From: Rhodospirillaceae bacterium
GTDB lineage: Bacteria; Pseudomonadota; Alphaproteobacteria; Dongiales; Dongiaceae
Assembly: GCA_008012315.1 (NCBI GenBank)
Contig: SSEL01000042.1
Span: 1-64,000 of the forward strand
Direction: 5' to 3'
DNA: 64,000 bases
In this document: in pieces, positions 2,701 to 40,654 of the stretch
Numbering within the stretch: position 1 is the first letter of the stretch
How the letters are laid out: every line of letters begins with the position of its first letter
Program-made: the position numbers and the translations under genes
The notes under the pieces: model-generated
Database searches by the model: none
Seen by the model: only the letters and a program-made list of their open reading frames with translations
What the model was told of the DNA's origin: nothing

Positions 2701-3823
2701 ATTAAACGAGCTTGCGTTCAGACCGTCCCCCACGTGATGCGCAAATCGTCAATCTAAGGCCCTGTTTTCTCGAAGCGGGGCGTAAGTCTTGGCTCGTTGC
2801 CACAATATACTTACGCACGCCGTGACGCCGGCCATGGGGCGAGGACGGTCGGGCGAGCCCGATCCAATCGCCCGGTGGTGGCAGGCGAGGCCATCCGGAT
2901 TAAAGTCGGTGGCGCGGCCGGAGCAGCAAACATTTGCCCGGCGGACGGATTCATGGCCAATACGAAGCTGAGCGCCGCACGGGATAATAATGCCGAACCC
3001 GGGCTACAGAGGTGCGGGCGTCGTAATCAACTTCTGGATTCTCGCTGCATTGATGACGCTGTCTGCGTTGCAATTCTTGTGATCCCACTTTTCGAGATGC
3101 TTGGGGCGAGGGACGAAAGGGGCATGACCATATCGCGACCAACTAAGGGAAATTGGCCGAGATAACACCTTCGGTGTGCTGCCGTAAGACCTGGCCCCGC
3201 AGCGCAATTGGAAATCCAGCGCCGCATCCTGGCGCTCGCGGACGTACCGACAGCGCGCCCAGTCGAGTTCTCCACAATCGCTTTATCGCGATAACCGGCG
3301 TTCTACTGCCAATATTCGGCGTCCTCTTTTGCCCGCCGTCGCCTGCAATGTCAGCGCAGCCGTGCGCCCGCTGCAAGCGGGCGGTCGACTCCCCGCAGCT
3401 TCACGACGCAGCTGAACATCTTGCAACCAGCAAGGCGAATGTCGGTAAGGCCGTTCAGCGCTCGGAAGCACGCCTCAGCATTCAGCTCTTTCGGCGCGCG
3501 ATGCGAGCGGTCCGCCTGCGGGAAGATGGCAATATCTATGTTCAGGTCGCCCGGGCGGAATGCGCGCGGCAAAAAAACTGGCGTGCAAAAAAGAGCTTCA
3601 TTCTCGACTGACAGTGCAGTCGGCAGAGGCACAACGTGGGCATCCAACTCCGTCGTCAAAATTCGGAATCCGGAATCTGCGAACTGGGGCGACCGGACAC
3701 GCTTTCGGGACCTCGAGGTTGATTTTCTATCTTATCTATAAGCGTCGCTTCACACGACTTAGACATCACTTGTCACCAAAGCAAGCAGATGTTTTTTCAG
3801 GAATTTATTATGGGAAGAGAAAC
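2701..3823. other. Long stretch without a supported gene
   Basis: About 1.1 kb. A short hydrophobic frame near 2991-3093 (PGYRGAGVVINFWILAALM) looks membrane-spanning but ends after about 33 residues. A longer plus-strand frame at 3153-3611 has no RBS and no known domain. The copy of the P460-linked 25-bp element lies at 3686-3710. I regard the rest as decayed or intergenic sequence. Confidence 0.35.
3686..3710 (+). promoter_or_regulatory. 25-bp element upstream of P460, repeated at 2526
   Basis: Matches 20 of 25 bases of 2526-2550. It sits 114 bp before the P460 start, a distance suited to an operator or upstream promoter element. The regulator is unknown; function is inferred from position and repetition. 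Confidence 0.35.
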
Positions 3824-4435
3824 ATGACTGAGAAGCCACGGAAAAGGAAAGCATTCTGCGCAGCTTCGGCAGCATTTGTCGCGGGAATGTTAGTCGTTGG
3901 AGTTGCAGGGGCGTCTGCCGATGATGGCAGCAAGATGCCCGGGCGGTACTTGCCGGAATACACTGCTTCCGGGGAGATTAAGCTCCCCAAAAATTTCCAC
4001 GAATGGGTTTATGTCGGATCGCCACTGACGCCCAACGCCCTTAACAAGGGTAAGGCGGCTTTCCCGGAGTATCACAATGTCTATATAGAGCCGGGAGCAT
4101 ACGCTATTTACAAGAAAACGAACGCGTTTCCGGAAGATACAATCTTCGTGAAGGAGTTGCAGCTAACACAGCCAGCTGAGAATCCAGATGGATCGAGGAC
4201 CGAGCCTTCAGGGCGAGGTTATTTCCCTGGAGACTTTTACGGTGCTGAAGTGGCTGTGAAGAATTCCAAGCGATATGCTGCATCCGGCGGCTGGGGATAT
4301 TTCGATTTCAAATATGCCGACCCAAAGATGACCACTGCGAAGGTTCAAGAAAACGGTAGTTGCGCGTACTGCCACACAGCAAGTGCGAAGAAGGATATGG
4401 TCTGGACGCAATTCTACCGTCTACTGGACAAATAA
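3824..4435 (+). CDS. Cytochrome P460 family protein
   Basis: Periplasmic c-type heme protein of 203 residues. An N-terminal signal peptide (RKRKAFCAASAAFVAGMLVVGVAGASA) is followed by the conserved segment LPKNFHEWVYVGSPLTPNAL and, near the C-terminus, the heme-binding CAYCH (about residues 182-186), then MVWTQFYRLLDK. P460 proteins oxidise hydroxylamine or bind NO in nitrifiers, and related members occur in many proteobacteria with unknown roles. The ATG at 3824 has GGAAGAG upstream and starts directly at the basic signal-peptide region; the open frame extends further upstream but without coding character. Two partial copies of this gene lie at 2614-2700 (same strand) and 5385-5535 (opposite strand), so this is the surviving intact copy. 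The crosslinking lysine typical of true P460 was not located with certainty. Confidence 0.85.
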   Translation: MTEKPRKRKAFCAASAAFVAGMLVVGVAGASADDGSKMPGRYLPEYTASGEIKLPKNFHEWVYVGSPLTPNALNKGKAAFPEYHNVYIEPGAYAIYKKTNAFPEDTIFVKELQLTQPAENPDGSRTEPSGRGYFPGDFYGAEVAVKNSKRYAASGGWGYFDFKYADPKMTTAKVQENGSCAYCHTASAKKDMVWTQFYRLLDK

Positions 4436-4535
4436 GACAAAGCCTATCAGGGCAGAGGCGGGATGAGATATTCCGAAGGCAAAGATAAGTAGAATTTGAG
4501 GCAGTATTCATGGAGGGCTGATCGTGATCTGGCGA

Positions 4536-5339
4536 TCAGTCCTGCTCGATCCGCTGCTGCGCGGCCTCCCAATCGGCGATGTTGCGTCGGGCTTCCTGCA
4601 CATAAGGGCTGTAACGCACGGCGGCTAGGAACAAGTCGCCGAGCACCTTGCCGGGTTGACGCAGCGGCCGCTTGAACTGCAGGAACAGCACAACCCGGGT
4701 GTGCTCCGTGTCATTCCAGACTTCATGCGGGTAGGTGTCATCGAACACTAGGCACCTGCCCTCTTCCCAACGGAAGATCTTATCGTCCACGGCGATGCGG
4801 CAGCCTTCGGTGCCGGGCGGGATCGGTCGAGGCACGATCAAGGCAAGATGGCAGTTGATGAGGCGTTTTGAGACGCCTTGATGGCGCGGTATATGGGTTC
4901 CAGGCGCCAAGATCGAAAAAAAGGCCGTGGTCAGGCCGGGCACGCATTCAAGGGCCAAGGTGGTCTGGAGACAACGGGCACAATTGGTCGGGACGTTATA
5001 ACCGAAGCCACAAAGGAAGAAGGAGCGCCACTGCTCCCCTTTTGAAATCTCGTACTGGTCCGGCGACACGTCGTGAAAAGTGGGGATCTCCTCGCGCTTG
5101 CTCAACAGCGCTTCGACCTCGGCGCGGATCGCCGGCCAATGTCCCTCCAGATCACCGATCCATGGAAACACATCGTTGTCGAAGACGGCCGGATCGCCGA
5201 CCTCGGAATGCGCCGCCAGAATCCGGTTTAGCCAAAGTCGGAGCCTTTTAACTGCTCTGAACACCGGGCCGCGTTTCTTCTCGCGCTGTCCAGCCTGAGC
5301 CTGCATTGCAAGCTGCTGACCCGTCTCCCCTTCATTCAT
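4536..5339 (-). CDS. Aspartyl/asparaginyl beta-hydroxylase family dioxygenase
   Basis: Predicted non-heme Fe(II)/2-oxoglutarate-type dioxygenase of the AspH family, 267 residues. Visible family signatures are FFSILAPGTHIPRHQG (first metal-ligand histidine region), an INCHLALIVP strand, and CLVFDDTYPHEVWNDTEHTRV (second histidine, followed by a basic residue for the co-substrate). The C-terminus is a helical tail. Start choice: ATG 5339 has GAAGGG four bases upstream; longer in-frame starts exist to 5423, but that upstream DNA is the remnant of a P460 gene, so the real start should lie after it. Target unknown: relatives hydroxylate proteins or lipid A and ornithine-lipid acyl chains. No partner gene is obvious. 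Confidence 0.8.
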   Translation of the reverse strand: MNEGETGQQLAMQAQAGQREKKRGPVFRAVKRLRLWLNRILAAHSEVGDPAVFDNDVFPWIGDLEGHWPAIRAEVEALLSKREEIPTFHDVSPDQYEISKGEQWRSFFLCGFGYNVPTNCARCLQTTLALECVPGLTTAFFSILAPGTHIPRHQGVSKRLINCHLALIVPRPIPPGTEGCRIAVDDKIFRWEEGRCLVFDDTYPHEVWNDTEHTRVVLFLQFKRPLRQPGKVLGDLFLAAVRYSPYVQEARRNIADWEAAQQRIEQD

Positions 5340-5384
5340 TTTCCCTTCCGTCATTTCCGCGTTCCGACTGATTGCCATGCCTGT

Positions 5385-5535
5385 TCGCCGTTCGAGGTGA
5401 GAGGGGATCCGACGAAAACCCACTCATGCAAATTTTTTCGGCAGAAGAAGCTTAACGACGGAATCGTACTCGGGCAGCCACCGGCGGGAAGGCGGAGCAT
5501 CATCGGCCGCCGATTTCGCCAAATAAGCGGCAGCA
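5385..5535 (-). pseudogene. Cytochrome P460 N-terminal remnant, frameshifted
   Basis: On the minus strand one frame reads AKSAADDAPPSRRWLPEYDS and then VVKLLLPKKF before a stop. A second frame continues with NLHEWVFVGSPLTSNG. Joined across a frameshift near 5430, these align with the intact P460 (ASADDGSKMPGRYLPEY and LPKNFHEWVYVGSPLTPN). The end of a signal peptide (VAAAYLA) is still visible upstream. The remnant stops abruptly next to the start of the AspH-like gene. It is a broken third copy of the P460 gene. Confidence 0.7.
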
Positions 5536-5545
5536 ACCGAAATTC

Positions 5546-5929
5546 CACAAGTTCGTTCCACAGGCCACAGTAGTCTTGGCGTCGAGAATCCTGCCGATCA
5601 TCGAATTCTCCATCTCTTCAATGTCAGTTTGGTGCCGAGGCGCATGGTTAGTAACAGAGAGCACTGTAAGGAGGAGCGGACATCTTATGGTCCTGAATGC
5701 GTGTCCAAATGCCCACTGCTGTCTTGAGATCTGTACACTCGATCTCGTGATTATGGATGAATTAACACATATTCAGGGCTCGGGAGATCAGGCGCTCGAA
5801 TTATCCTTCGAACAGCCATTAGAGTGGCAACATCTCCGGTGCACGAGGACCGCAGACTTCGTTCGCCGGATAATTTAAAGAGCTTAGCTCCACCCGAGCC
5901 TTACACGGTTGGAGACCAGTTGGTGTCAT
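5546..5929. other. Stretch between remnants; nothing recognised
   Basis: A 100-residue open frame on the plus strand (5576-5878) has no RBS and no recognisable domain. No other signal was seen. Confidence 0.3.
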
Positions 5930-6120
5930 CCCCGCTAATCTGTTTTGGAATCTTCCGTCTAAGGCTCAAATGGGCGCGAATTGGCTCTGACGTCTTTCCT
6001 GCCTGGTGGATAAGGCCATCGGCCATCCTCACGGGCACGCTCGTTTCCTCGGTAGCGAGGATGATGCCGCTACGAGTAACATCGCCTTCTCGCCATGCCA
6101 ATACTGGGAAAGCCGCGTCA
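5930..6120 (-). pseudogene. Multicopper oxidase remnant
   Basis: The minus-strand frame at about 6116-6042 reads AAFPVLAWREGDVTRSGIIL and continues ATEE. It aligns with [20 protein letters not shown] in the intact multicopper oxidase at 14889-16361. Further along, IRAHLSLRRKIPKQIS is weakly similar to the next segment of that protein ([16 protein letters not shown]). No start, no copper-ligand motifs and no rest of the gene remain. It is a decayed fragment of a second CopA-like oxidase gene. Confidence 0.6.
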
Positions 6121-6217
6121 TCACAAGAACTTCGGCCTCGACGAAACCGAAGAGACGTTTGAAACTTCTGACCACGATAGCCATGCGGTTTCATCGGAAT
6201 CTCCGTATCGATTGACA

Positions 6218-6568
6218 TCAATTGATATCGTCAGCTCGATCCACGCAAGACGCCAACATATTCGGTATATTCTCATGTGCTGCCAGCTTAGCGATCTCCG
6301 CTTGCAACTCAGATACCGCATCGCCAAACGCTGTACAGATCTCAGCACATCGGCTCATCCTTACACGCCACAGAGAAGTTATGATTTTATATACTCTTCC
6401 ATCTAATTCCTTAGCGAGCAGATGTAGGTCGATCATTGCACTCTGCTCGACGGTAGTGAGCTGATGAAAAGGGCGCAATCGATTACTGTTGATTCCGCCA
6501 GTATATTTATCTTCCGCGTAATCCAGTACGAAGCACGATCCCTTTCGTCCGTCCTGCAGCGGCATCAT
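6218..6568 (-). CDS. Hypothetical protein, 116 residues, unassigned
   Basis: An open frame starting with two consecutive methionines and ending in CVDRADDIN. It contains a helical, coiled-coil-like segment (FGDAVSELQAEIAKLAAHEN) near the C-terminus and no signal peptide. I recognise no family. Its frame stays open upstream without another good start, and it overlaps the end of the truncated SCO-like gene by 4 bases. It may be a real small gene at the end of the DUF411-SCO transcript, or the tail of a larger gene whose front was lost. Composition is somewhat less GC-rich than the copper genes upstream. Confidence 0.35.
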   Translation of the reverse strand: MMPLQDGRKGSCFVLDYAEDKYTGGINSNRLRPFHQLTTVEQSAMIDLHLLAKELDGRVYKIITSLWRVRMSRCAEICTAFGDAVSELQAEIAKLAAHENIPNMLASCVDRADDIN

Positions 6569-6834
6569 GATCGCAACACGCTCTGGCTGGACAAGCCAAC
6601 GATACGGATCAGGATCGAAGATGTTTCCGTAGCCTCTCGTCCTAATCCGAGTAGGAGGATCACTCTCTCGCCGTCCTGAAGCACGAAATCAGGGGTGGCG
6701 CTGTCCGCCGGCTGAAAGTACTGCTCCGACCCCTTGAGTTCGTCATTGAGTTCCTGCAACGAGCGCGCCTGCGCTGGCGGTGTCACCGCCAGCGCCAGCA
6801 CGGCTGTAAGAACAATATTACGAATAGTCTTCAT
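6565..6834 (-). pseudogene. SCO-like copper chaperone, truncated after its first strand
   Basis: Starts MKTIRNIVLTAVLALAVTPP with a clean signal peptide ending in AQA, followed by an exported segment (RSLQELNDELKGSEQYFQPA) and DFVLQDGERV. This resembles the start of SCO1/SenC copper chaperones, where xPDFxLxDxxG begins the thioredoxin fold. The expected CxxxC copper site and the rest of the fold are absent; the frame runs into an unrelated tail (LLLGLGREATETSS) and stops after about 89 residues. It lies 13 bp downstream of the DUF411 gene in the same direction, as expected for a copper operon. Calling it SCO-like rests on this short N-terminal match and on context. Confidence 0.45.
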
Positions 6835-6847
6835 CGATACTGCCCGA

Positions 6848-7288
6848 TCACTCGATGGCATAGACTGTCGGCGCCTGTCCGTCTTTGGTGAAGGCGTAGA
6901 TCTTGAACGGCTCCGCTTTCATGCCGGGCATGCCGGGAGCGCCCGTCGGCATCCCAGGCAGAGTGATGCCGGCGACGGCAGGGCGCTCCTTCAGGAGTTT
7001 TTGGACAACATTCACCGGCACAAGACCATCGATGACATAGCCATCCACGAACATCGTATGGCAGCCCTCCAAGGCGGGAGGGACACCCGCATTTTCGCTG
7101 ATCTCGGCCAAGTCGTTGGTGGGCTTAACTTCAACCTTAAATCCGTTTTGCTCGAGATAGGCGGCATAGCCTTCGCAGCAGGTGCATTGGGGATTTTTGT
7201 AGAGGACGGCCTCGATGGGAGCTGCCAGTGCCGGCAGCGGCAACGAAAGAAGCGTGACAAGGGTGCCAAAACGTAATGCCGATTTCAT
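6848..7288 (-). CDS. DUF411 metal-binding protein, exported
   Basis: 146-residue DUF411 protein with an N-terminal signal peptide (KSALRFGTLVTLLSLPLPALA). The core begins IEAVLYKNPQCTCCEGYAAY, with cysteines at about 35, 37 and 38 of the thioredoxin-like metal-binding motif, then GCHTMFVDGYVIDGLVPV with a further Cys-His. A Met-rich linker (GMPTGAPGMPGMKAE) precedes the C-terminal strand. DUF411 proteins are periplasmic and are linked to copper or silver resistance operons. An AAGGAG RBS lies 8-9 bases before the ATG. It sits immediately downstream of a multicopper oxidase on the same strand and upstream of the SCO-like remnant, so it very likely belongs to the same copper transcript. Confidence 0.9.
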   Translation of the reverse strand: MKSALRFGTLVTLLSLPLPALAAPIEAVLYKNPQCTCCEGYAAYLEQNGFKVEVKPTNDLAEISENAGVPPALEGCHTMFVDGYVIDGLVPVNVVQKLLKERPAVAGITLPGMPTGAPGMPGMKAEPFKIYAFTKDGQAPTVYAIE

Positions 7289-7320
7289 AAGAGTTCTCCT
7301 TGGCTAAGCGGTTTCAAAGT

Positions 7321-8763
7321 TTATGCGACGCGCAGTACGGTCATCAGTCCAGACACCTGGTGATCCATTACATGACAATGCAACATCCAGTCGCCGGGAT
7401 TGTCGGCGACGAAGGCGCAATCGACCGTTTCCTTCGGTGAAAGAAGTACTGTGTCGCTCCATTGGTGATAGGGAACGGAAGCGCCATTGCGGCTCATCAC
7501 ACGGAAGCTATGGCCGTGAAGATGCATTGGGTGCCACCAAGCCGTCTGATTGCGGATGGAAAGGACATAGCTCTTGCCGCGCTGCAATGTGAGTAGCGGC
7601 GGCATGTTGGATTGCCCATCGCCGGTCATGGACATGCCGTTGATCGCCCAGACGGCACCGCCATCCATGCCAGGCATCGCCATGCCGTTCATGCCGCCTA
7701 TCCCGGACATCATTCCACCGCCCATCATGCCGCCTTGCAGAACGATGTCGTGCCGCTCCGCCGAGGAGAGGTCGGGCTCCGGCACGGGATTGCTCGGCAG
7801 CCGCAAAGATGCGTCCGATGGATGAGCGCGGAGCGGCGCTTCATCACCGTAGTTGAAGCGGGTCAGCGTATAGCCGAGACCGTCATAGAAGTCGTCCCTC
7901 ACGAGATAGCGACGTCCAGGATCGCCTTGCATGTCGATCACGAGGTCGACGCGCATAGCCGGCGCCAAAAGAATGCGACTATCAGCCGGTTCATGGGGTT
8001 CGCATGGCTGACCATCGATCGCGATAATGACGGGGCGATGTCCCTCGAAGCGTAAGGCCATGATGCGGGCCAGGGCGGCATTAATGAGGCGCAGGCGGAT
8101 CCGTTCGCCTGCCCGGACCGTTTGGTCACCGGGCACCTTTCCGTTCAGGGTCACCGCATTGCCAACCCGGCCGCCCATTCCGGCATCCATCATATTGCCA
8201 AACCCGGCGGCGAGCTGGCCGGTCGCCTTCAATCGCCAGTCCGACAGCACCCAAAGAAGGTCGCGATCCACGGCGACCGGCTGACGCTCCTCGACAATAA
8301 GCGCTCCTGCCAGACCGTGGCCGAGTTGTTGCAGGCTATTGGCATGGGGATGATACCAGAACGTGCCAGCATCGGGCGGCGCGAATTCGTAGATAAAACG
8401 CTCTCCCGGTTTGATGGGCGGCTGTGTCAGCTCCGGCACACCATCCATGGCATTGGGTAACCTGATGCCGTGCCAATGGACTGTCGTATCCTGATCGAGC
8501 TTGTTCTCGACGACGATCCGCATGGTCTCGCCTTGCCGCGCACGGACGACAGGGCCGGGTATCTGGCCGTTATACCCCCATACCTCCGTTTCCGAGTGGT
8601 TTGGCCCAAGCAGTTGGCTACGAGTGCGAATTGGGGCAAGTTGGTAATCGGTAGAGGAAGCCGCCCAGCTTTGAGGGCGAGGTCCGGTCGCGGCAAGAAG
8701 CAGGCCGCCACCAGCCCACAGCAATTTGCGGCGCGAGATGGACAAAGACGATATTCGATGCAC
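7321..8763 (-). CDS. Multicopper oxidase, Tat-exported
   Basis: About 480-residue periplasmic multicopper oxidase, likely oxidising Cu(I) or phenolic substrates. A Tat signal (SISRRKLLWAGGGLLLAATG) leads into three cupredoxin domains. Copper ligands are visible in order: HWHG and HPHA in domain 1, then HPMHLHGH and HCHVMDHQVSGLM in domain 3 (T1, T2 and T3 sites complete). A Met-rich stretch (GGMMGGGMMSGIGGMNGMAM) before domain 3 resembles the methionine-rich insert of CueO. Start: GTG 8763 has AAGGA 8 bases upstream and gives a short, typical Tat peptide; in-frame ATGs at 8787 and 8805 are alternatives. The DUF411 gene follows 32 bp downstream. Confidence 0.92.
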   Translation of the reverse strand: MHRISSLSISRRKLLWAGGGLLLAATGPRPQSWAASSTDYQLAPIRTRSQLLGPNHSETEVWGYNGQIPGPVVRARQGETMRIVVENKLDQDTTVHWHGIRLPNAMDGVPELTQPPIKPGERFIYEFAPPDAGTFWYHPHANSLQQLGHGLAGALIVEERQPVAVDRDLLWVLSDWRLKATGQLAAGFGNMMDAGMGGRVGNAVTLNGKVPGDQTVRAGERIRLRLINAALARIMALRFEGHRPVIIAIDGQPCEPHEPADSRILLAPAMRVDLVIDMQGDPGRRYLVRDDFYDGLGYTLTRFNYGDEAPLRAHPSDASLRLPSNPVPEPDLSSAERHDIVLQGGMMGGGMMSGIGGMNGMAMPGMDGGAVWAINGMSMTGDGQSNMPPLLTLQRGKSYVLSIRNQTAWWHPMHLHGHSFRVMSRNGASVPYHQWSDTVLLSPKETVDCAFVADNPGDWMLHCHVMDHQVSGLMTVLRVA

Positions 8764-33955: not shown

Positions 33956-36100
33956 TTATTTCTCCGAGAGATTGACGATGCCGTCCCAGGCGACAGGCGG
34001 CGTCACGATATTAGCAGCGGCGCGTTCGGCAAAGGCGGCGGCGATCTCGTCGCCTTCCTTGGCCAGGTTGTTGAAGGCCGCGACTGCTGCCGCGAAATCA
34101 CCACTGCGCCAGGCGGCCAGCGCGTTCATCCAGCGGCCATCGGAATCGGCAAGCGGCGTGAAAAGGCGGACCGGCTGATCCCGGCCGACCACGCGGACCT
34201 GATCCAACTCCCGGAAGGTGATGGCATCGCCAACCATTTCACGCGTCTGCTCGCTGAGGATGATCGAGGTATGATAGCGTTTGCCGACGCCCTCCAGCCG
34301 CGAGGCGAGATTCACGCTGTCACCGACCACGGTGTAGTTGAAACGGTTAGGCGAACCGATATTGCCGACGATCGCTTCACCGGTATGCAGGCCGACACGG
34401 ATATGAAAACGCTCGCCATTCAATGTCAGATTGGCATCATCGGCGCAAGCGGCCACCATATCCAGCCCGGCTTGCGTGCCGGCCAAGGCATGATTGCCAT
34501 TGCGGATCGGCGCGCCGAAGACGGCGAGAATGCCGTCGCCGATGAACTTGTCGACGAAACCGCCATGATCCTGCACGATCTCCGTCATCCGCCCGAAATA
34601 GGCGTTGAGATCATGCACCAGGTCGCCGGGCGAGAGGCTCTCCGACAGTTTCGAATAGCCGGCGATATCGGAGAAGAGGATGGTGACCTCACGCAACTCT
34701 CCGCCGAGCGATGGCGCCTGTCCTTCGGCGGCGAGGCGTTCCAGTTCCGCCTCCGGTAGATAAAGCGCAAAGGAGCGCCGCAATTGGCGCCGCACGCGAT
34801 CGACCAAGGCGATCCGATAGGTGAGACTGGTCGGCACGGCTGCCAGCATGACGCCAATACCGGCGGTCAGCGGCAGGACAAGATTGCCGGTAAACACGAA
34901 AGCTGTCGCTGCCATCCAGGCGATGCCGAGCAATCCGATACCGATGGCTGCTTGAAAAAAGGGGCGATAGATCGTCAGACCGGCCGTGACGAAGCCCAGC
35001 AGGAACAAGCAGGCAAGGCGCAGGCCTTCCGACGCCGGACGTAGCCAATCGCCTTGTCTCAGATTGTCGATGGCGGTGGCGAGAATATAAGAGCCGGGAA
35101 TGAATTTGCTGGCATGGGGGCTGAGGACGCTTTGCATCACGTCTCGATGGACGCAGCGCGGCGCATAATTTTGCCCCATGGGATTGGTCGCCAGGCGCTT
35201 CGAGGTAAGGCGGCGATCCTCGGTATCCAGAACCGCGCCGAAAATCACCGTGCGTCCGGCAAATTGCTGGTGGAAGAAATCGGCATTCCCCGCTTGGGCG
35301 CAGGCATAGAGATCGGCGAAGGAATAAACCGGCGGATCGGCGGCAACCGGCTTGAAATTCAGCAGAAAGCGATCGGTGCCGGTCTCCGGCAGCCGCTTGC
35401 CGGCGATCAGGGGCGCGCCATTGCGATCGAAAGCGAGATCCTGATGGGTCGCACGGGCGAAGACCTCCAGAGCAAAGCCGGCGATATCGTGCTCCTCTTC
35501 CGGCAGGCAGGCGGTCGTGCCGGGACATTCATGGGTCTTCAGCAAGGCCGAGCGGATGACGCCGTCGGCATCGTCGATCATATTGGTGGGTCGCAGATTG
35601 GTGCTGCCGCCGACCGCCAAGGCCTGGGAGCGATAGGGCCAGAGCGGCTGTCCGCCTTGCCGGTTGTAGCTCATGACGACGCGTTTTTCCTTGCCGCCCC
35701 GATTCAAGGCGCGCAGTAAATCACGGTCGTAATTGCGCAGCACCGCATCCGCTTCCGGCGTCATGGCCGGTGCGGCAGCAACGGATTTGTTGAAGATGGC
35801 ATCGATGCCGACGACATCGGCGCCGCCATCCAGAACGGCATCGAGAACGGCACCGATCTGCGGCGTCCACATGGCCTGGGGCGTCAGGCGAAAAGGATCC
35901 CGCGCATAGGTTTCCTCATCGATGCCGATGATGACCGTGCGATCGTTTCTGCCCCCCTTATCGGCTGCCGGTGCGAAGCCGGACAACCAGTGCAGGATAT
36001 CCAGGGACAGGCCGTCGCCGCGCTCACGCCAGGCGTCGTTGCCGACCAGGGCCAGCGCGGCGGCAATCGCCGCCACGGCGAAAAGAGGTTTGACGCGCAA
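33956..36100 (-). CDS. CHASE2-domain class III adenylate cyclase
   Basis: 714-residue membrane sensor cyclase. After one N-terminal membrane segment comes a periplasmic CHASE2 domain (about 35-335: VIIGIDEETYARDPF, GADVVGIDAIF, GRTVIFGAVLDTED). Then three closely spaced helices (LACLFLLGFVTAGLTIY and following), and a cytoplasmic cyclase domain (about 460-640): ILFSDIAGYSKLSE has the first metal Asp, DKFIGDGILAVFGAP carries the substrate-specifying Lys and second metal Asp, and VVGDSVNLASRLE holds the catalytic Asn and Arg. All key residues for cAMP synthesis are present. A short C-terminal helical tail follows. It lies 27 bp downstream of the FecR-like gene, so the two form an operon. Confidence 0.93.
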   Translation of the reverse strand: MRVKPLFAVAAIAAALALVGNDAWRERGDGLSLDILHWLSGFAPAADKGGRNDRTVIIGIDEETYARDPFRLTPQAMWTPQIGAVLDAVLDGGADVVGIDAIFNKSVAAAPAMTPEADAVLRNYDRDLLRALNRGGKEKRVVMSYNRQGGQPLWPYRSQALAVGGSTNLRPTNMIDDADGVIRSALLKTHECPGTTACLPEEEHDIAGFALEVFARATHQDLAFDRNGAPLIAGKRLPETGTDRFLLNFKPVAADPPVYSFADLYACAQAGNADFFHQQFAGRTVIFGAVLDTEDRRLTSKRLATNPMGQNYAPRCVHRDVMQSVLSPHASKFIPGSYILATAIDNLRQGDWLRPASEGLRLACLFLLGFVTAGLTIYRPFFQAAIGIGLLGIAWMAATAFVFTGNLVLPLTAGIGVMLAAVPTSLTYRIALVDRVRRQLRRSFALYLPEAELERLAAEGQAPSLGGELREVTILFSDIAGYSKLSESLSPGDLVHDLNAYFGRMTEIVQDHGGFVDKFIGDGILAVFGAPIRNGNHALAGTQAGLDMVAACADDANLTLNGERFHIRVGLHTGEAIVGNIGSPNRFNYTVVGDSVNLASRLEGVGKRYHTSIILSEQTREMVGDAITFRELDQVRVVGRDQPVRLFTPLADSDGRWMNALAAWRSGDFAAAVAAFNNLAKEGDEIAAAFAERAAANIVTPPVAWDGIVNLSEK

Positions 36101-36127
36101 GCCGCCGACCCGCCCTGAACCGGTTGG

Positions 36128-36811
36128 TTACAGTTTGACGAGGCGGCGCAGCAGCGGCGTCTCGCCGGGCTTGGCGGCCGGATCGATCATGATCGTCGTC
36201 TTCCGCTTGCCGGCCGTCACCTGATAAACCCCGCCGGGCTGCAGCTTGATGCCGGCTGCCTGCAAGTCGGCGCGGCCCTTCTTCAGGGGAACGACGATCG
36301 GTGCCACCTCTTTATCGGTCCGGGTCAGCGTCACCTTGCTGGCCTTATCGGCGATAATGAAGGGGCTGAGCGAGGGAACCGTCGGCAGCGGACGGAACAC
36401 GACGGTTGCCGACTGATCCTGGGAGTCGCCCGACAGGGCAAGCTGCCTGGTGCCGCAATCCACCGTCTCACGGCTGACCTGGCCGCCTTCGACCGTTGAT
36501 TCGGTTTTACCGATTTTAACCAAACCACCGGTGATGGTTTCCCGGCTGCAATTGTCGAGATAACTGATCACCGCGTGACCGTTCGGCCGCAAATCCACGG
36601 TCTGGCCGGCCCGCAAATTATCGAACTGGGCAATGCCCTTGGGTCCGGACTCGATCTCTTCGACCAGTGCACCAGCCGATTGTTCGGCTCTGGCTGAGAC
36701 CGGTGCGGCCACGGCCCCGCCAAGCAGAACCGACAGGCCGATTGCGGCCAGCAGCGATACCGGATGTTTCTCACGAGAATAGGCGCGCATCTGTTTCATG
36801 ATCCGTTGCAT
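36128..36811 (-). CDS. FecR-like domain protein, exported
   Basis: 227-residue protein with a signal peptide or anchor (SLLAAIGLSVLLGGAVAAPV SARA), followed by a FecR-like beta fold: GIAQFDNLRAGQTVDLRPNG and HAVISYLDNCSRETITGG. Cysteines at NCSRE and DCGTRQ could form a disulfide. The C-terminal half (LSPFIIADKASKVTLTRTD to the end) is a second small beta domain. ATG 36811 has AAGGGG 8 bases upstream; the frame open to 37003 is intergenic. FecR-like proteins are often encoded next to CHASE2 proteins, and this pair shows that arrangement. It could relay an envelope signal to the CHASE2 cyclase; that is inference. Confidence 0.75.
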   Translation of the reverse strand: MQRIMKQMRAYSREKHPVSLLAAIGLSVLLGGAVAAPVSARAEQSAGALVEEIESGPKGIAQFDNLRAGQTVDLRPNGHAVISYLDNCSRETITGGLVKIGKTESTVEGGQVSRETVDCGTRQLALSGDSQDQSATVVFRPLPTVPSLSPFIIADKASKVTLTRTDKEVAPIVVPLKKGRADLQAAGIKLQPGGVYQVTAGKRKTTIMIDPAAKPGETPLLRRLVKL

Positions 36812-37149
36812 CTGGGAAACCCCTTGTGCCCCAACAGGTTTCGTGCCGTCAACTGAACCGCCGAAGCGGCCTTTTCGGCAACGAAAATTCCCTATGGGAG
36901 GAATGTTAGCAATAAACGCGGCTATCGCAATGGGCGATCTTGTGACCGGAATCACTGTCATGGGTCGTGTTTTCGGATAAATAGAATAGCATCGAAACGG
37001 CAAAAAACTGCGGAATTCCGATGCGTTGATAAATGAAACTGAGCGGTTTGCAGCTGGACAACCGGAAATTTCGTGAATAGATTGCGCGCGGGCATTGCGC
37101 GAAATGCGCGCAATGTGGGGCGATTTTAGAAAATCACATCGAGGGGGTT
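36812..37149. promoter_or_regulatory. Divergent control region of the cyclase and caspase-like gene pairs
   Basis: 338 bp with no gene, A/T-richer in the middle. It holds CATTGCGCG (37093-37101) and CGCGCAATG (37107-37115), a perfect 9-bp inverted repeat with a 5-base loop, preceded by a further ATTGCGCG at 37081. This sits 35 bp before the beta-barrel gene start. GAGGGGG forms its RBS. Confidence 0.5.
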
Positions 37150-38124
37150 ATGCGTAAGTATCTTTCGCATCCGAAAAAAGCTGCCTGCGTGGCGCTTTTG
37201 GGGGTTTTGGCTGTCCAGGGTCTGACCGCTTCGGCGGCCCGGGCGGATAACGAAGTCGAAAAGAAGATCCGTGAAGAAGTCAGCCGCCGCGTCAGCGACG
37301 CGGTGTCGAACCGAATCAGCGACCGGTTGTCCGGTACGCCGAGCGGTACGGACACGCTGGAGAACAGCGCCTGGCTCACCGCCAGCTATAACAGCCTGAC
37401 CAGTGACAACAGCGGTCTCATTGAGAAGTCCGGTGCCAAGTTCCAGTCCGATGTGGTCAACACCACCTTCGGTCTCGATCATCGCTTCGGTGACTCGTTC
37501 TTCCTGGGTCTGTCGGGTTCCTACACCCATGCCGACACCGATGTGAAGCTGATCGGCGGCGGCGATTTCAAGGCCGAGGGCGATAACGATTCCTATACCA
37601 TCTCGCCTTATGCGGCTTATGTGATCACGCCGAATCTCTTCCTGAGCGGCCTGTTCAGCTACACCTATTCGGATGCCGAGACCGAAACCAAGGTTCTCGG
37701 GCTCAAGGACTCAACCGACGCCAATACCGAGACCTTCGGTACGGAACTCGCGGCCAATGGCGTCTATGATTGGAGCAACTGGCTGTTCAAGGGCAAGGCC
37801 GGCTGGCGTTTCAACTACACCGAGCTGCTCGACAATCAGGGTGGCGGCGATGATGATGTTCATGCGAATTCCGCCATCGTGAATGCGGAAGTCGGCTATC
37901 GGTTCGACCGCTTCGTGCCATATTTCCAGGTTCAGTATGAACATGTCTGGCCGGAAAAGTTCAGCGGCGTGAAGCAAGGTGATACCGATTACGTCTTCCT
38001 GACTGGCGGCGTGCGCGCTGCCATTACCGACACCATCTCTGCCGGCGCTTCGGTGAAGGCGGAAGTTCTGAACGACGAGACCAATCAGATCGGCGGCGCG
38101 GCTGAATTCCGCGTGCGCTTCTGA
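37150..38124 (+). CDS. Outer-membrane beta-barrel (autotransporter-barrel type)
   Basis: 324-residue protein. Signal peptide CVALLGVLAVQGLTASAARA, then a charged helix (EKKIREEVSRRVSDAVSNRI SDRL), then about 12 amphipathic strands, for example FFLGLSGSYTHADTDV, YTISPYAAYVITPNLFLSGL and VPYFQVQYEHVWPEKFSGV. It ends in the aromatic residue F (EFRVRF), the outer-membrane assembly signal. The barrel type matches autotransporter beta domains, but there is no passenger beyond the short helix. The next gene, encoding an exported caspase-like protein, has a comparable helical repeat after its signal peptide, so the two products may interact. Gap to the next gene is 136 bp. Confidence 0.85.
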   Translation: MRKYLSHPKKAACVALLGVLAVQGLTASAARADNEVEKKIREEVSRRVSDAVSNRISDRLSGTPSGTDTLENSAWLTASYNSLTSDNSGLIEKSGAKFQSDVVNTTFGLDHRFGDSFFLGLSGSYTHADTDVKLIGGGDFKAEGDNDSYTISPYAAYVITPNLFLSGLFSYTYSDAETETKVLGLKDSTDANTETFGTELAANGVYDWSNWLFKGKAGWRFNYTELLDNQGGGDDDVHANSAIVNAEVGYRFDRFVPYFQVQYEHVWPEKFSGVKQGDTDYVFLTGGVRAAITDTISAGASVKAEVLNDETNQIGGAAEFRVRF

Positions 38125-38260
38125 TCATCGATTTGCGGGCGCGCCGGTTGTCCGGTGCGTCCGCCCATCGACCAAGGCTTCCGGAAGGTGAGCCGAAAGC
38201 GACCGCGAGAAGCGGTCCCGAAATAGCGACGACATCGATATAACTGGTGGTGGAGCTGCC

Positions 38261-40654
38261 ATGATCGGGCGATCCCGGCTTTTCTCCCTGGCGATGCTGG
38301 CCGGACTGTCGAGCGGCCTGGCGGCGAGTCATGTCCTTGCCCAGGATGTGACGGATAGTATCAACAATACCATCAACCAGAGCATCACCGGCTCCATCTC
38401 GGACACCGTCAGCAACACCATCACCGAGAATGTCGTCTATACCAAGGCGAAGCTGCGCGTTTCGATGCCGCTGCTCCGCTTCAAACAATTCGCCGTCGCT
38501 GCTGGCGGCGATCATCTGGCCTTGCGCGCGGAAGACGGGTCGATCCGCGTCTGGAATCTGCAGCGCGGCAGCCAGGGCCGCCCCATCACCGGAGCCGCGG
38601 CAAATGCCGTCTTCGTGCCGAGCGCCGATGGCAGCCGGCTGCTGATCGGCGATGCCGCAGGCAAGGTCGATATCCGCGATGCGCTGACCGGCAAGCCGAA
38701 CACGACCCTGAACGGGCAAGGCGGCCAGATCACCCAGCTGATGACCAGCAATGACGCGCAGTTTCTGCTGATCGGCTATGGCAGCGGCGCGATCGAATAT
38801 TGGGACATGAATAAGCGCAGCCGGCTCTGGCAGGAGCATGCCGGCACGGCTGCCGTCTCTGCGCTCGCCGTGGCGCCGGGCGATGACAAGGCTGCTTTCG
38901 GCCTCGCCGATGGCAGCCTCGGCAGCATCGATCTCAAGAGCGGCAAGGCCGCGTCGCTTGGCAAGACGGATAAAGCAGTCGAGACCATGCGGTTTTCGGC
39001 CGATGGCAAACGCGTCGCGGCGATTTCCGCCTCGGGTCAGGCCTCGCTGCGGACGATCGGCGGCAAGGCCGGTGCTGCCGGCGGCAAGCTGCCGGTCGGC
39101 GACGGCGTCGTGGCGATTGCCGATACGCTGCGTGTCGCGGCGGTGGCGCAAGGCAAAGCGATTTCAGTTCTCGATCTGGCGAGCGGCCAATCGATCGCGC
39201 AGGTGGCGGGCGAGTCCGATCGCGTGATCGGTATCCAGATCGACGACAAAGCTCAGCGCCTGATCGCGGCAACGGCCGACGGCAAGCTGGTCGTCTGGGA
39301 TCTCGCGGCGAAGAAGGAGTTGCTGTCGATCTTCATCAGCCCGACCGGTTGGGCTCTGGTCGACCGCCAGGGGCGCTTCGACGGCACCGCCGACGGGCTG
39401 CAAAACGTGTCCTGGGAAGCCAACAAGCTGAATTTCCCCGTGACCACATTGCAGCAGGCGTTTTCCGATCCTGGCCTTCTGGCGGCCGCGCTGAAGAAAT
39501 CGGCGCGCGAGCCAAGGGCCGTGCCGCAAAGCATGGAAAAGGGCTTGCCGCTGCCGCCGAAGATCGAGATCGAGCCGGTTCCCAGCGACAAGGTCGCGGG
39601 CAAACCCTATCAGTTGATCGTCATCGCCGAGGACCAGGGCGGCGGAATCAAGGATGTCCGCCTCTATCACAACGGCAAGATCGTCAGTGTCGGCGCCATG
39701 CTGGAGCAGAAGGATGCTGAGAATGACGGCCGCCATATCCGTGTTGTCGGCTATAACGTCTGGCCGACACCGGGCACCAATGTCTTTCAGGCGGTGGCGA
39801 CGGGCGCCTACGATAACGAAGGGCAGAAGGCCGAATTTCGTGAGACCTTTACCGGGCAGGCTGGCGCCGGTACTCTGAACGTCATCGCGGTCGGCATTTC
39901 CAAATATCCCAATCTCGCGCCGACGGATCAGTTGCGCGTCGCCGCAAGCGATGCGCAGGCCGTCGCATCGACGGTGGGCGGCCGGGCGAAACCGGTCTTC
40001 AAATCGGTGCAGACGCGGCAATTGCTGGACGGGCAGGCGACAAGGGCGAATCTTTTGCAGGCGCTCGGCAGCTTGAAGAACACCAAGCCGGAAGATGCGA
40101 TCCTGCTGTTCCTTTCCGGCCATGGTTTCGGCAACGAAGACGACTGGTATTTCATCCCCAGCGATGCCCGCTTCGACGATCCCAAGAGCTGGCTGAAAGC
40201 CTCGGAGATCCGCAATGCGTTGCAGGCAGCCGGGGCGCAACGCGTCTTCGTCGTGGTCGATTCCTGTTATTCCGGCGGCACGGTCGACCGCTTCAATGCG
40301 GTGACCAGCTTCCAGACCCGATTCCTGGATAACGGCTTGCGCAGCGCCGGCGTGCAGGTGCTGACGGCGACACGGCGCGATCAGATGGCGCCGGAAAGCG
40401 TGCAATTGGGTTATGGGTTCCTGACTTATGTCTTCCTGCAAGGACTGCAGGGTGCTGCCGATAAATATCCGAAGGATGGCGTGGTGACGTCGCAGGAAGT
40501 GGCACGGTACACTTATGACACGATCCCGCTAGTTTTCCTGCAGCAGAAAGAACGCAACCCGCGTGCTTTCGCCCAGGCCTATGGCGAGGCGATCCAGGAA
40601 CCTGCCGTTTACAGCCTGGGCGCGGACCTGACGCTCGGTGCTGTCGGCAAGTGA
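38261..40654 (+). CDS. Exported beta-propeller/caspase-like (peptidase C14) protein
   Basis: 797 residues. A signal peptide (LFSLAMLAGLSSGLAASHVL A) is followed by a helical repeat (DSINNTINQSITGSISDTVS). From about 65 to 375 there is a WD40/quinoprotein-type beta-propeller (repeats such as IRVWNLQRGS, VDIRDALTGKP, IEYWDMNKRS and LVVWDLAAKKE). After a linker and an Ig-like segment (about 430-530), a caspase-fold domain (about 540-760) shows NVIAVGISKYPNLAPTD, the catalytic His in LFLSGHGFGNEDDWYFIPSD and the catalytic Cys in VVVDSCYSGGTVDR. Both catalytic residues are present, so it is likely an active Arg/Lys- or Asp-directed protease located in the periplasm or outside. Confidence 0.9.
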   Translation: MIGRSRLFSLAMLAGLSSGLAASHVLAQDVTDSINNTINQSITGSISDTVSNTITENVVYTKAKLRVSMPLLRFKQFAVAAGGDHLALRAEDGSIRVWNLQRGSQGRPITGAAANAVFVPSADGSRLLIGDAAGKVDIRDALTGKPNTTLNGQGGQITQLMTSNDAQFLLIGYGSGAIEYWDMNKRSRLWQEHAGTAAVSALAVAPGDDKAAFGLADGSLGSIDLKSGKAASLGKTDKAVETMRFSADGKRVAAISASGQASLRTIGGKAGAAGGKLPVGDGVVAIADTLRVAAVAQGKAISVLDLASGQSIAQVAGESDRVIGIQIDDKAQRLIAATADGKLVVWDLAAKKELLSIFISPTGWALVDRQGRFDGTADGLQNVSWEANKLNFPVTTLQQAFSDPGLLAAALKKSAREPRAVPQSMEKGLPLPPKIEIEPVPSDKVAGKPYQLIVIAEDQGGGIKDVRLYHNGKIVSVGAMLEQKDAENDGRHIRVVGYNVWPTPGTNVFQAVATGAYDNEGQKAEFRETFTGQAGAGTLNVIAVGISKYPNLAPTDQLRVAASDAQAVASTVGGRAKPVFKSVQTRQLLDGQATRANLLQALGSLKNTKPEDAILLFLSGHGFGNEDDWYFIPSDARFDDPKSWLKASEIRNALQAAGAQRVFVVVDSCYSGGTVDRFNAVTSFQTRFLDNGLRSAGVQVLTATRRDQMAPESVQLGYGFLTYVFLQGLQGAADKYPKDGVVTSQEVARYTYDTIPLVFLQQKERNPRAFAQAYGEAIQEPAVYSLGADLTLGAVGK

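Follow-up and report, generated by a model that had tools for sequence, protein, structure and literature searches.

In Sinorhizobium meliloti, the cAMP-Clr complex activates smc02177 and smc02178, two genes near cyaD1 and clr (PMC5498481), and one metacaspase-CHASE2 fusion has been reported in Trichodesmium (PMC3501461). An earlier note on the DNA studied here stated that it knew of no described system joining a FecR-like protein, a CHASE2 adenylate cyclase, an outer-membrane barrel and an exported caspase-like protein. For the combination as a whole this holds in the open-access literature; however, its signalling half has precedents in CyaD1/Clr, NsrA-CyaK and a cluster of Campylobacterota (PMC5498481, PMC7529298, PMC9239204). 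The pairing of CHASE2 adenylate cyclases with exported peptidases was not encountered in the open-access papers searched: in that literature, with subscription journals largely outside it, no paper linked these cyclases to CHAT or caspase peptidases, and none joined CHASE2, FecR and a caspase.

Gene content and predicted products of the cluster

The window (the whole stretch of DNA analysed, 64,000 nucleotides long, from a soil bacterium) carries at 33956-40654 a cluster of four genes in two divergent pairs, and gene coordinates and domain matches confirm the positions and arrangement first read from the sequence (Table 1). On the minus strand the partner gene is followed after 27 bp by the cyclase gene, and an alternative upstream start of the partner gene is possible at 36847. 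The plus-strand pair, divergent from the first, consists of the barrel gene and then the caspase-like gene. Signal peptides were called by eye, without a predictor.

Table 1. Features of the divergent four-gene cluster, in window coordinates
Feature	Position	Strand	Properties
CHASE2 + class III adenylate cyclase (predicted)	33956..36100	-	714 aa, TTG start; Pfam CHASE2 7.5e-20, Guanylate_cyc 2.3e-26
Exported beta-rich partner ('FecR-like' by position)	36128..36799	-	223 aa, signal peptide, two invariant Cys
CRP-like operator (candidate) TGTGACCGGAATCACT	36941..36956	.	Between the divergent operons; one mismatch vs TGTGA-N6-TCACA
GC-rich inverted repeat	37081..37115	.	Two overlapping 9-bp arm pairs
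Lone autotransporter-type outer-membrane barrel (predicted)	37150..38124	+	324 aa, signal peptide, N-terminal helix, 12 strands, C-terminal Phe; PF03797 1.2e-19
WD40 propeller + clan-CD caspase-like peptidase, exported (predicted)	38261..40654	+	797 aa, H621 and C669

The cyclase scores 72 bits for CHASE2 and 93 bits for the cyclase domain, well above the Pfam cut-offs of 26.3 and 21.9, and residues D478, K518, D522, D594, N597 and R601 are all in place. D478 and D522 are the metal Asp residues, and the Lys/Asp pair typical for adenylate cyclases is kept; by its residues, the enzyme is predicted to be of the adenylate type, in agreement with the CHASE2 adenylate cyclase with full catalytic residues that had been described before.

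The label 'FecR-like', given to the partner protein in the earlier note, fails in Pfam: neither the window protein nor any of 10 relatives matched PF04773 (FecR) at E up to 1, and the name derives solely from the position of the gene beside a CHASE2 cyclase. The AF2 model of the partner (pLDDT 79) is all-beta with a C-terminal Ig/Fn3-like domain, and a fold search with this model returned only common Ig/Fn3-type matches to the C-terminal domain (Z up to 7.2), with no FecR fold among them. The gene is conserved directly upstream of CHASE2 cyclases and adjoins the cyclase in most of 40 loci read outside Dongiaceae; on Azospirillum plasmids its product is annotated as hypothetical. Several Dongia genomes also carry lone partner paralogues without a cyclase, flanked on one side by a metal P-type ATPase/MerR pair and on the other by an ABC transporter operon (L110-L115).

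An outer-membrane barrel had been proposed for the first plus-strand gene, and the autotransporter domain PF03797 bears this out. In the AF2 model (pLDDT 73, moderate confidence) a helix at the N-terminus accompanies 12 strands; the best PDB matches are Hbp, BrkA, EspP and NalP. The domain match, the moderately confident model and the PDB matches agree on the 12-strand translocator with N-terminal helix of a type Va autotransporter; a passenger in the same polypeptide is absent, just about 30 residues lying between the signal peptide and the first strand of the barrel.

The second plus-strand gene had been read as encoding an exported beta-propeller/caspase-like protein with the active-site His and Cys, and this description stands: the protein has a signal peptide and WD40 repeats, and H621 and C669 are invariant in 8/8 homologues. 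An NCBIfam caspase model (EACC1-associated type) matches it with E 5e-18 and 65.4 bits, below the cut-off of 140. When the caspase region was searched alone, no PF00656 (Peptidase C14) match appeared at E up to 0.1 and no Pfam cut-off was reached, the nearest family being C13, of the same clan, at 21.7 bits versus a cut-off of 22.8. Judged from its sequence, the protein is a clan-CD caspase-like protein with no family assignment, which would be expected to act as a protease and to reside at the cell surface. The barrel (EVEKKIREEVSRRVSDAVSNRIS, 37249-37350) and the caspase-like protein (DSINNTINQSITGSISDTVSNTITENV, 38340-38440) carry similar S/D/I-rich segments after their signal peptides, and these segments might pair.

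Joint inheritance and the intergenic region

Gene calls and profile searches across 17 Dongiaceae genomes found the same divergent order of the four genes in eight (8/17; Dongia deserti and D. mobilis are among the named carriers), and the caspase-like and barrel genes were both absent from the other nine (9/17). A close homologue of the cyclase was confined to the same 8/17 genomes that hold the caspase and barrel genes (Fisher p 4e-5 for the co-occurrence, with related genomes treated as independent). The genes that flank the cluster vary between genera. Co-occurrence of the four genes in conserved order, a point raised by the earlier note, is thus seen within the family, and these distributions support the view that both pairs of genes act together as a unit. 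In Desertibaculum (L084) the barrel and caspase genes stand together with no cyclase beside them, and the neighbourhoods of remote WD40-caspases in other classes contain no partner gene of the cluster.

The inverted repeat to which the earlier note had drawn attention is real, with two overlapping 9-bp pairs; however, it is not conserved, as nothing comparable to 37081-37115 was found in the six relatives examined. The conserved element of the intergenic region is instead the CRP-like palindrome. Its half-sites, TGTG and TCAC, are invariant in 8/8 family loci, and against TGTGA-N6-TCACA the site shows at most one mismatch in 6/8 of these loci and two mismatches in 2/8. The probability of such a site in a 350-bp stretch of the same composition is 0.0045. 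CRP-like sites were also found in the promoter regions of 9 of 45 other loci, versus 0.85 expected by random placement, and the window's own genome encodes a CRP whose recognition helix, RETVNR, fits the site. A conserved site in the promoter region marks this intergenic region as a candidate cAMP-CRP operator. The DNA itself shows which parts make up the cluster, that they are inherited together and that the CRP-like site is conserved. In three alphaproteobacterial genomes of 6-7 Mb, all from one family, CRP-like sites (e.g. AGTGATTCTGGTCACA) lie some 100 bp in front of the partner gene (L230 7901, L231 7199, L233 7288).

Peptidase neighbours and a proposed cAMP circuit

Strong matches to the cyclase were collected from 385 alphaproteobacterial genomes and the DNA around 40 loci outside Dongiaceae was read, peptidases being counted within a radius of 6.5 kb with Pfam checks of the neighbours. 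A peptidase stands beside the cyclase in 26 of the 40 related loci (CHAT 13, caspase C14-like 5, M48 8), compared with 0/20 control cyclases, which come from the same genome sample and belong to a more distant cyclase subfamily. When related and control loci are compared, Fisher p is 5e-7 with all peptidases counted and 2e-4 with the caspase fold alone, values that ignore kinship, the 40 loci not being phylogenetically independent. The pairing therefore reaches beyond close relatives: exported peptidases are found beside such cyclases across Alphaproteobacteria, and one locus (L229) comes from another class. A peptidase neighbour is not obligatory, because 14/40 related loci show none of these peptidases in the 6.5-kb radius, 3 of the 14 lying at contig ends. 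For what CHASE2 domains sense, the statistical link between the cyclase, an exported partner and an exported peptidase names a concrete candidate.

In the cyclase tree, M48 partners are clustered and CHAT is widespread; the Dongiaceae cluster forms one clade nested in the CHAT-rich part, and partners exchange. Genome G311 holds two paralogues, one CHAT-linked and the other WD40-caspase-linked (L154, L161). In two loci the caspase domain belongs to a two-partner-secretion exoprotein (TpsA) whose pore (TpsB) is encoded beside it: at L152 the order is partner, cyclase, TpsB and a TpsA with a C-terminal caspase domain, and at L229 it is TpsB, TpsA with a caspase domain, partner and cyclase. Azospirillum plasmids carry partner, cyclase and TpsB. 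Another Dongiaceae genome (L105) has an independent paralogous operon, in which the partner-CHASE2 cyclase pair is followed by an exported canonical caspase (3239-4939, 5018-6871, 6895-7503). Where no peptidase was found, small secreted proteins of about 130-145 aa follow the partner-cyclase operon at L106 (9722-10631) and L107 (5003-5921). At L173 (5346-8525) the operon is adjoined by an ABC transporter in which Pfam identifies a cyclic-nucleotide-binding domain; this transporter is a possible direct target of cAMP.

Taking into consideration: (i) the shared gene order and joint absence within Dongiaceae, and the excess of peptidase neighbours over controls, (ii) the exchange of peptidase partners in the cyclase tree, the type Vb version at L152 and L229 and the L105 operon, (iii) the CRP-like site in all family loci and in other loci, the CRP of the genome itself and the Clr precedent of S. 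meliloti (PMC5498481); we consider that the four genes are probably a single envelope unit under cAMP control, where the cyclase, acting via CRP, would govern the exported caspase-like peptidase and its outer-membrane partner, with feedback. Counted against this reading are the related loci without a peptidase, the Desertibaculum pair without a cyclase, the family sites with two mismatches, and a caspase region that stays below the Pfam cut-offs. The envelope system of the earlier note, in which FecR/CHASE2 would set cAMP with a protease and a barrel, is in part upheld by the behaviour of the gene pairs, the adenylate-type residues and the peptidase neighbours, but not in its assignment of the partner to FecR.

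The sequence shows an inner-membrane CHASE2 adenylate cyclase encoded together with the exported partner protein, and a divergent operon for an autotransporter-type pore and a secreted caspase-like peptidase. As to the signal, its direction, the substrate of the peptidase and the route of transport, we infer the following scheme. An envelope signal read by CHASE2 and the partner would set the activity of the cyclase. cAMP-CRP would then bind the central site and adjust both operons, and the exported peptidase and the pore would be the output and also close a feedback loop. Less well supported are two further steps: the barrel may carry the caspase-like protein to the outer membrane or anchor it there, and the peptidase may cut envelope proteins, possibly the partner or the CHASE2 ectodomain, in which case proteolysis itself would be the signal. 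The conserved CRP-like site makes the proposed loop directly testable. More speculatively, CHASE2 cyclases of this type might as a rule be receptors that report what an exported peptidase does, in a general envelope system where a caspase-fold or M48 peptidase beyond the inner membrane and the periplasmic partner set cAMP; the Dongiaceae peptidase might then be at the outer membrane via a separate autotransporter-type pore, as a split form of type V secretion.

The main rival places the peptidase and barrel at the input: an outer-membrane signal would lead the peptidase to cut the partner or the CHASE2 ectodomain and so switch the cyclase, the CRP-like site providing only feedback. The exchange of unrelated peptidases (CHAT, C14-like, M48) beside one type of sensor fits an output and a proteolytic trigger equally well, and NsrA, a barrel of S. 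meliloti, works upstream of CHASE2 cyclases (PMC7529298); however, the Clr targets smc02177 and smc02178 are dispensable for signal perception in S. meliloti (PMC5498481), and we regard this arrangement as possible but doubtful. It is less likely still that two independent modules, partner-cyclase and barrel-caspase, became neighbours once in an ancestor of Dongiaceae and were kept without a functional link. Outside Dongiaceae the exact order of the four genes was not found, within the family it makes up a single clade of the cyclase tree, and the Desertibaculum pair has no cyclase; yet the genes are present or absent jointly while flanking genes differ between genera, the CRP-like site is common to both operons, and such cyclases have repeatedly and independently been paired with exported peptidases. 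An anti-phage or programmed-death system, in which a nucleotide alarm from the cyclase fires a caspase-like executioner, is very improbable. The Pycsar-cyclase and defence-caspase models of PADLOC give weak to moderate matches, but the signal peptide places the caspase outside the cytoplasm, and the Pycsar match covers just the cyclase domain common to all class III cyclases. The cyclase here is of the membrane CHASE2 kind and has residues of the adenylate type, and no PADLOC model matches the partner or the barrel.

Pycsar itself was rejected as an identification, since the match is to the cyclase domain only and none of the other three proteins matches a PycTM or PycTIR effector.

A cAMP-controlled envelope unit, the reading we favour, points to an envelope role for bacterial caspase-like proteins, which have so far been studied mostly for cytoplasmic defence and for cell death.

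Comparison with described systems

The clr/cyaD1/smc02177/smc02178 region of S. meliloti (PMC5498481), likened here by description, resembles the window cluster in that a CHASE2 adenylate cyclase, a FecR-domain-annotated gene and an exported-protein gene lie close together, and in that smc02177 and smc02178 have a common intergenic region and are both activated by Clr/cAMP. It differs in that no caspase or barrel is described, the Clr gene lies inside the cluster and the signal is from the plant. SMb20495, an exported TPR protein that Clr controls in S. meliloti, was considered as a possible TPR-CHAT peptidase; plasmid searches with a CHAT protein gave no Sinorhizobium record among the matches listed.

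NsrA, together with CyaK and CyaD1/D2 of S. meliloti (PMC7529298, PMC13001267), also likened by description, offers a second parallel, an outer-membrane beta-barrel that works with CHASE2 adenylate cyclases; however, NsrA is much larger, with its barrel at residues 600-1200, it is a receptor, and no peptidase is described with it. In the Campylobacterota cluster (PMC9239204) a CHASE2 adenylate cyclase is likewise clustered with an exported FecR-type protein, but a phosphodiesterase and a TPR protein, both absent from the window cluster, are added and no peptidase is mentioned.

Prokaryotic caspase homologues with WD40 (PMC3501461) share with the window protein the union of a caspase-like domain and a WD40 propeller; the survey mentions no FecR or autotransporter partners, and the window protein has a signal peptide. 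In contrast to type V autotransporters, the window cluster encodes its barrel and its caspase as two polypeptides, and transport of one by the other would be a presumed step; the barrel nevertheless has the shape of an autotransporter translocator, and at L152 and L229 a TpsB is joined to a TpsA with a caspase domain.
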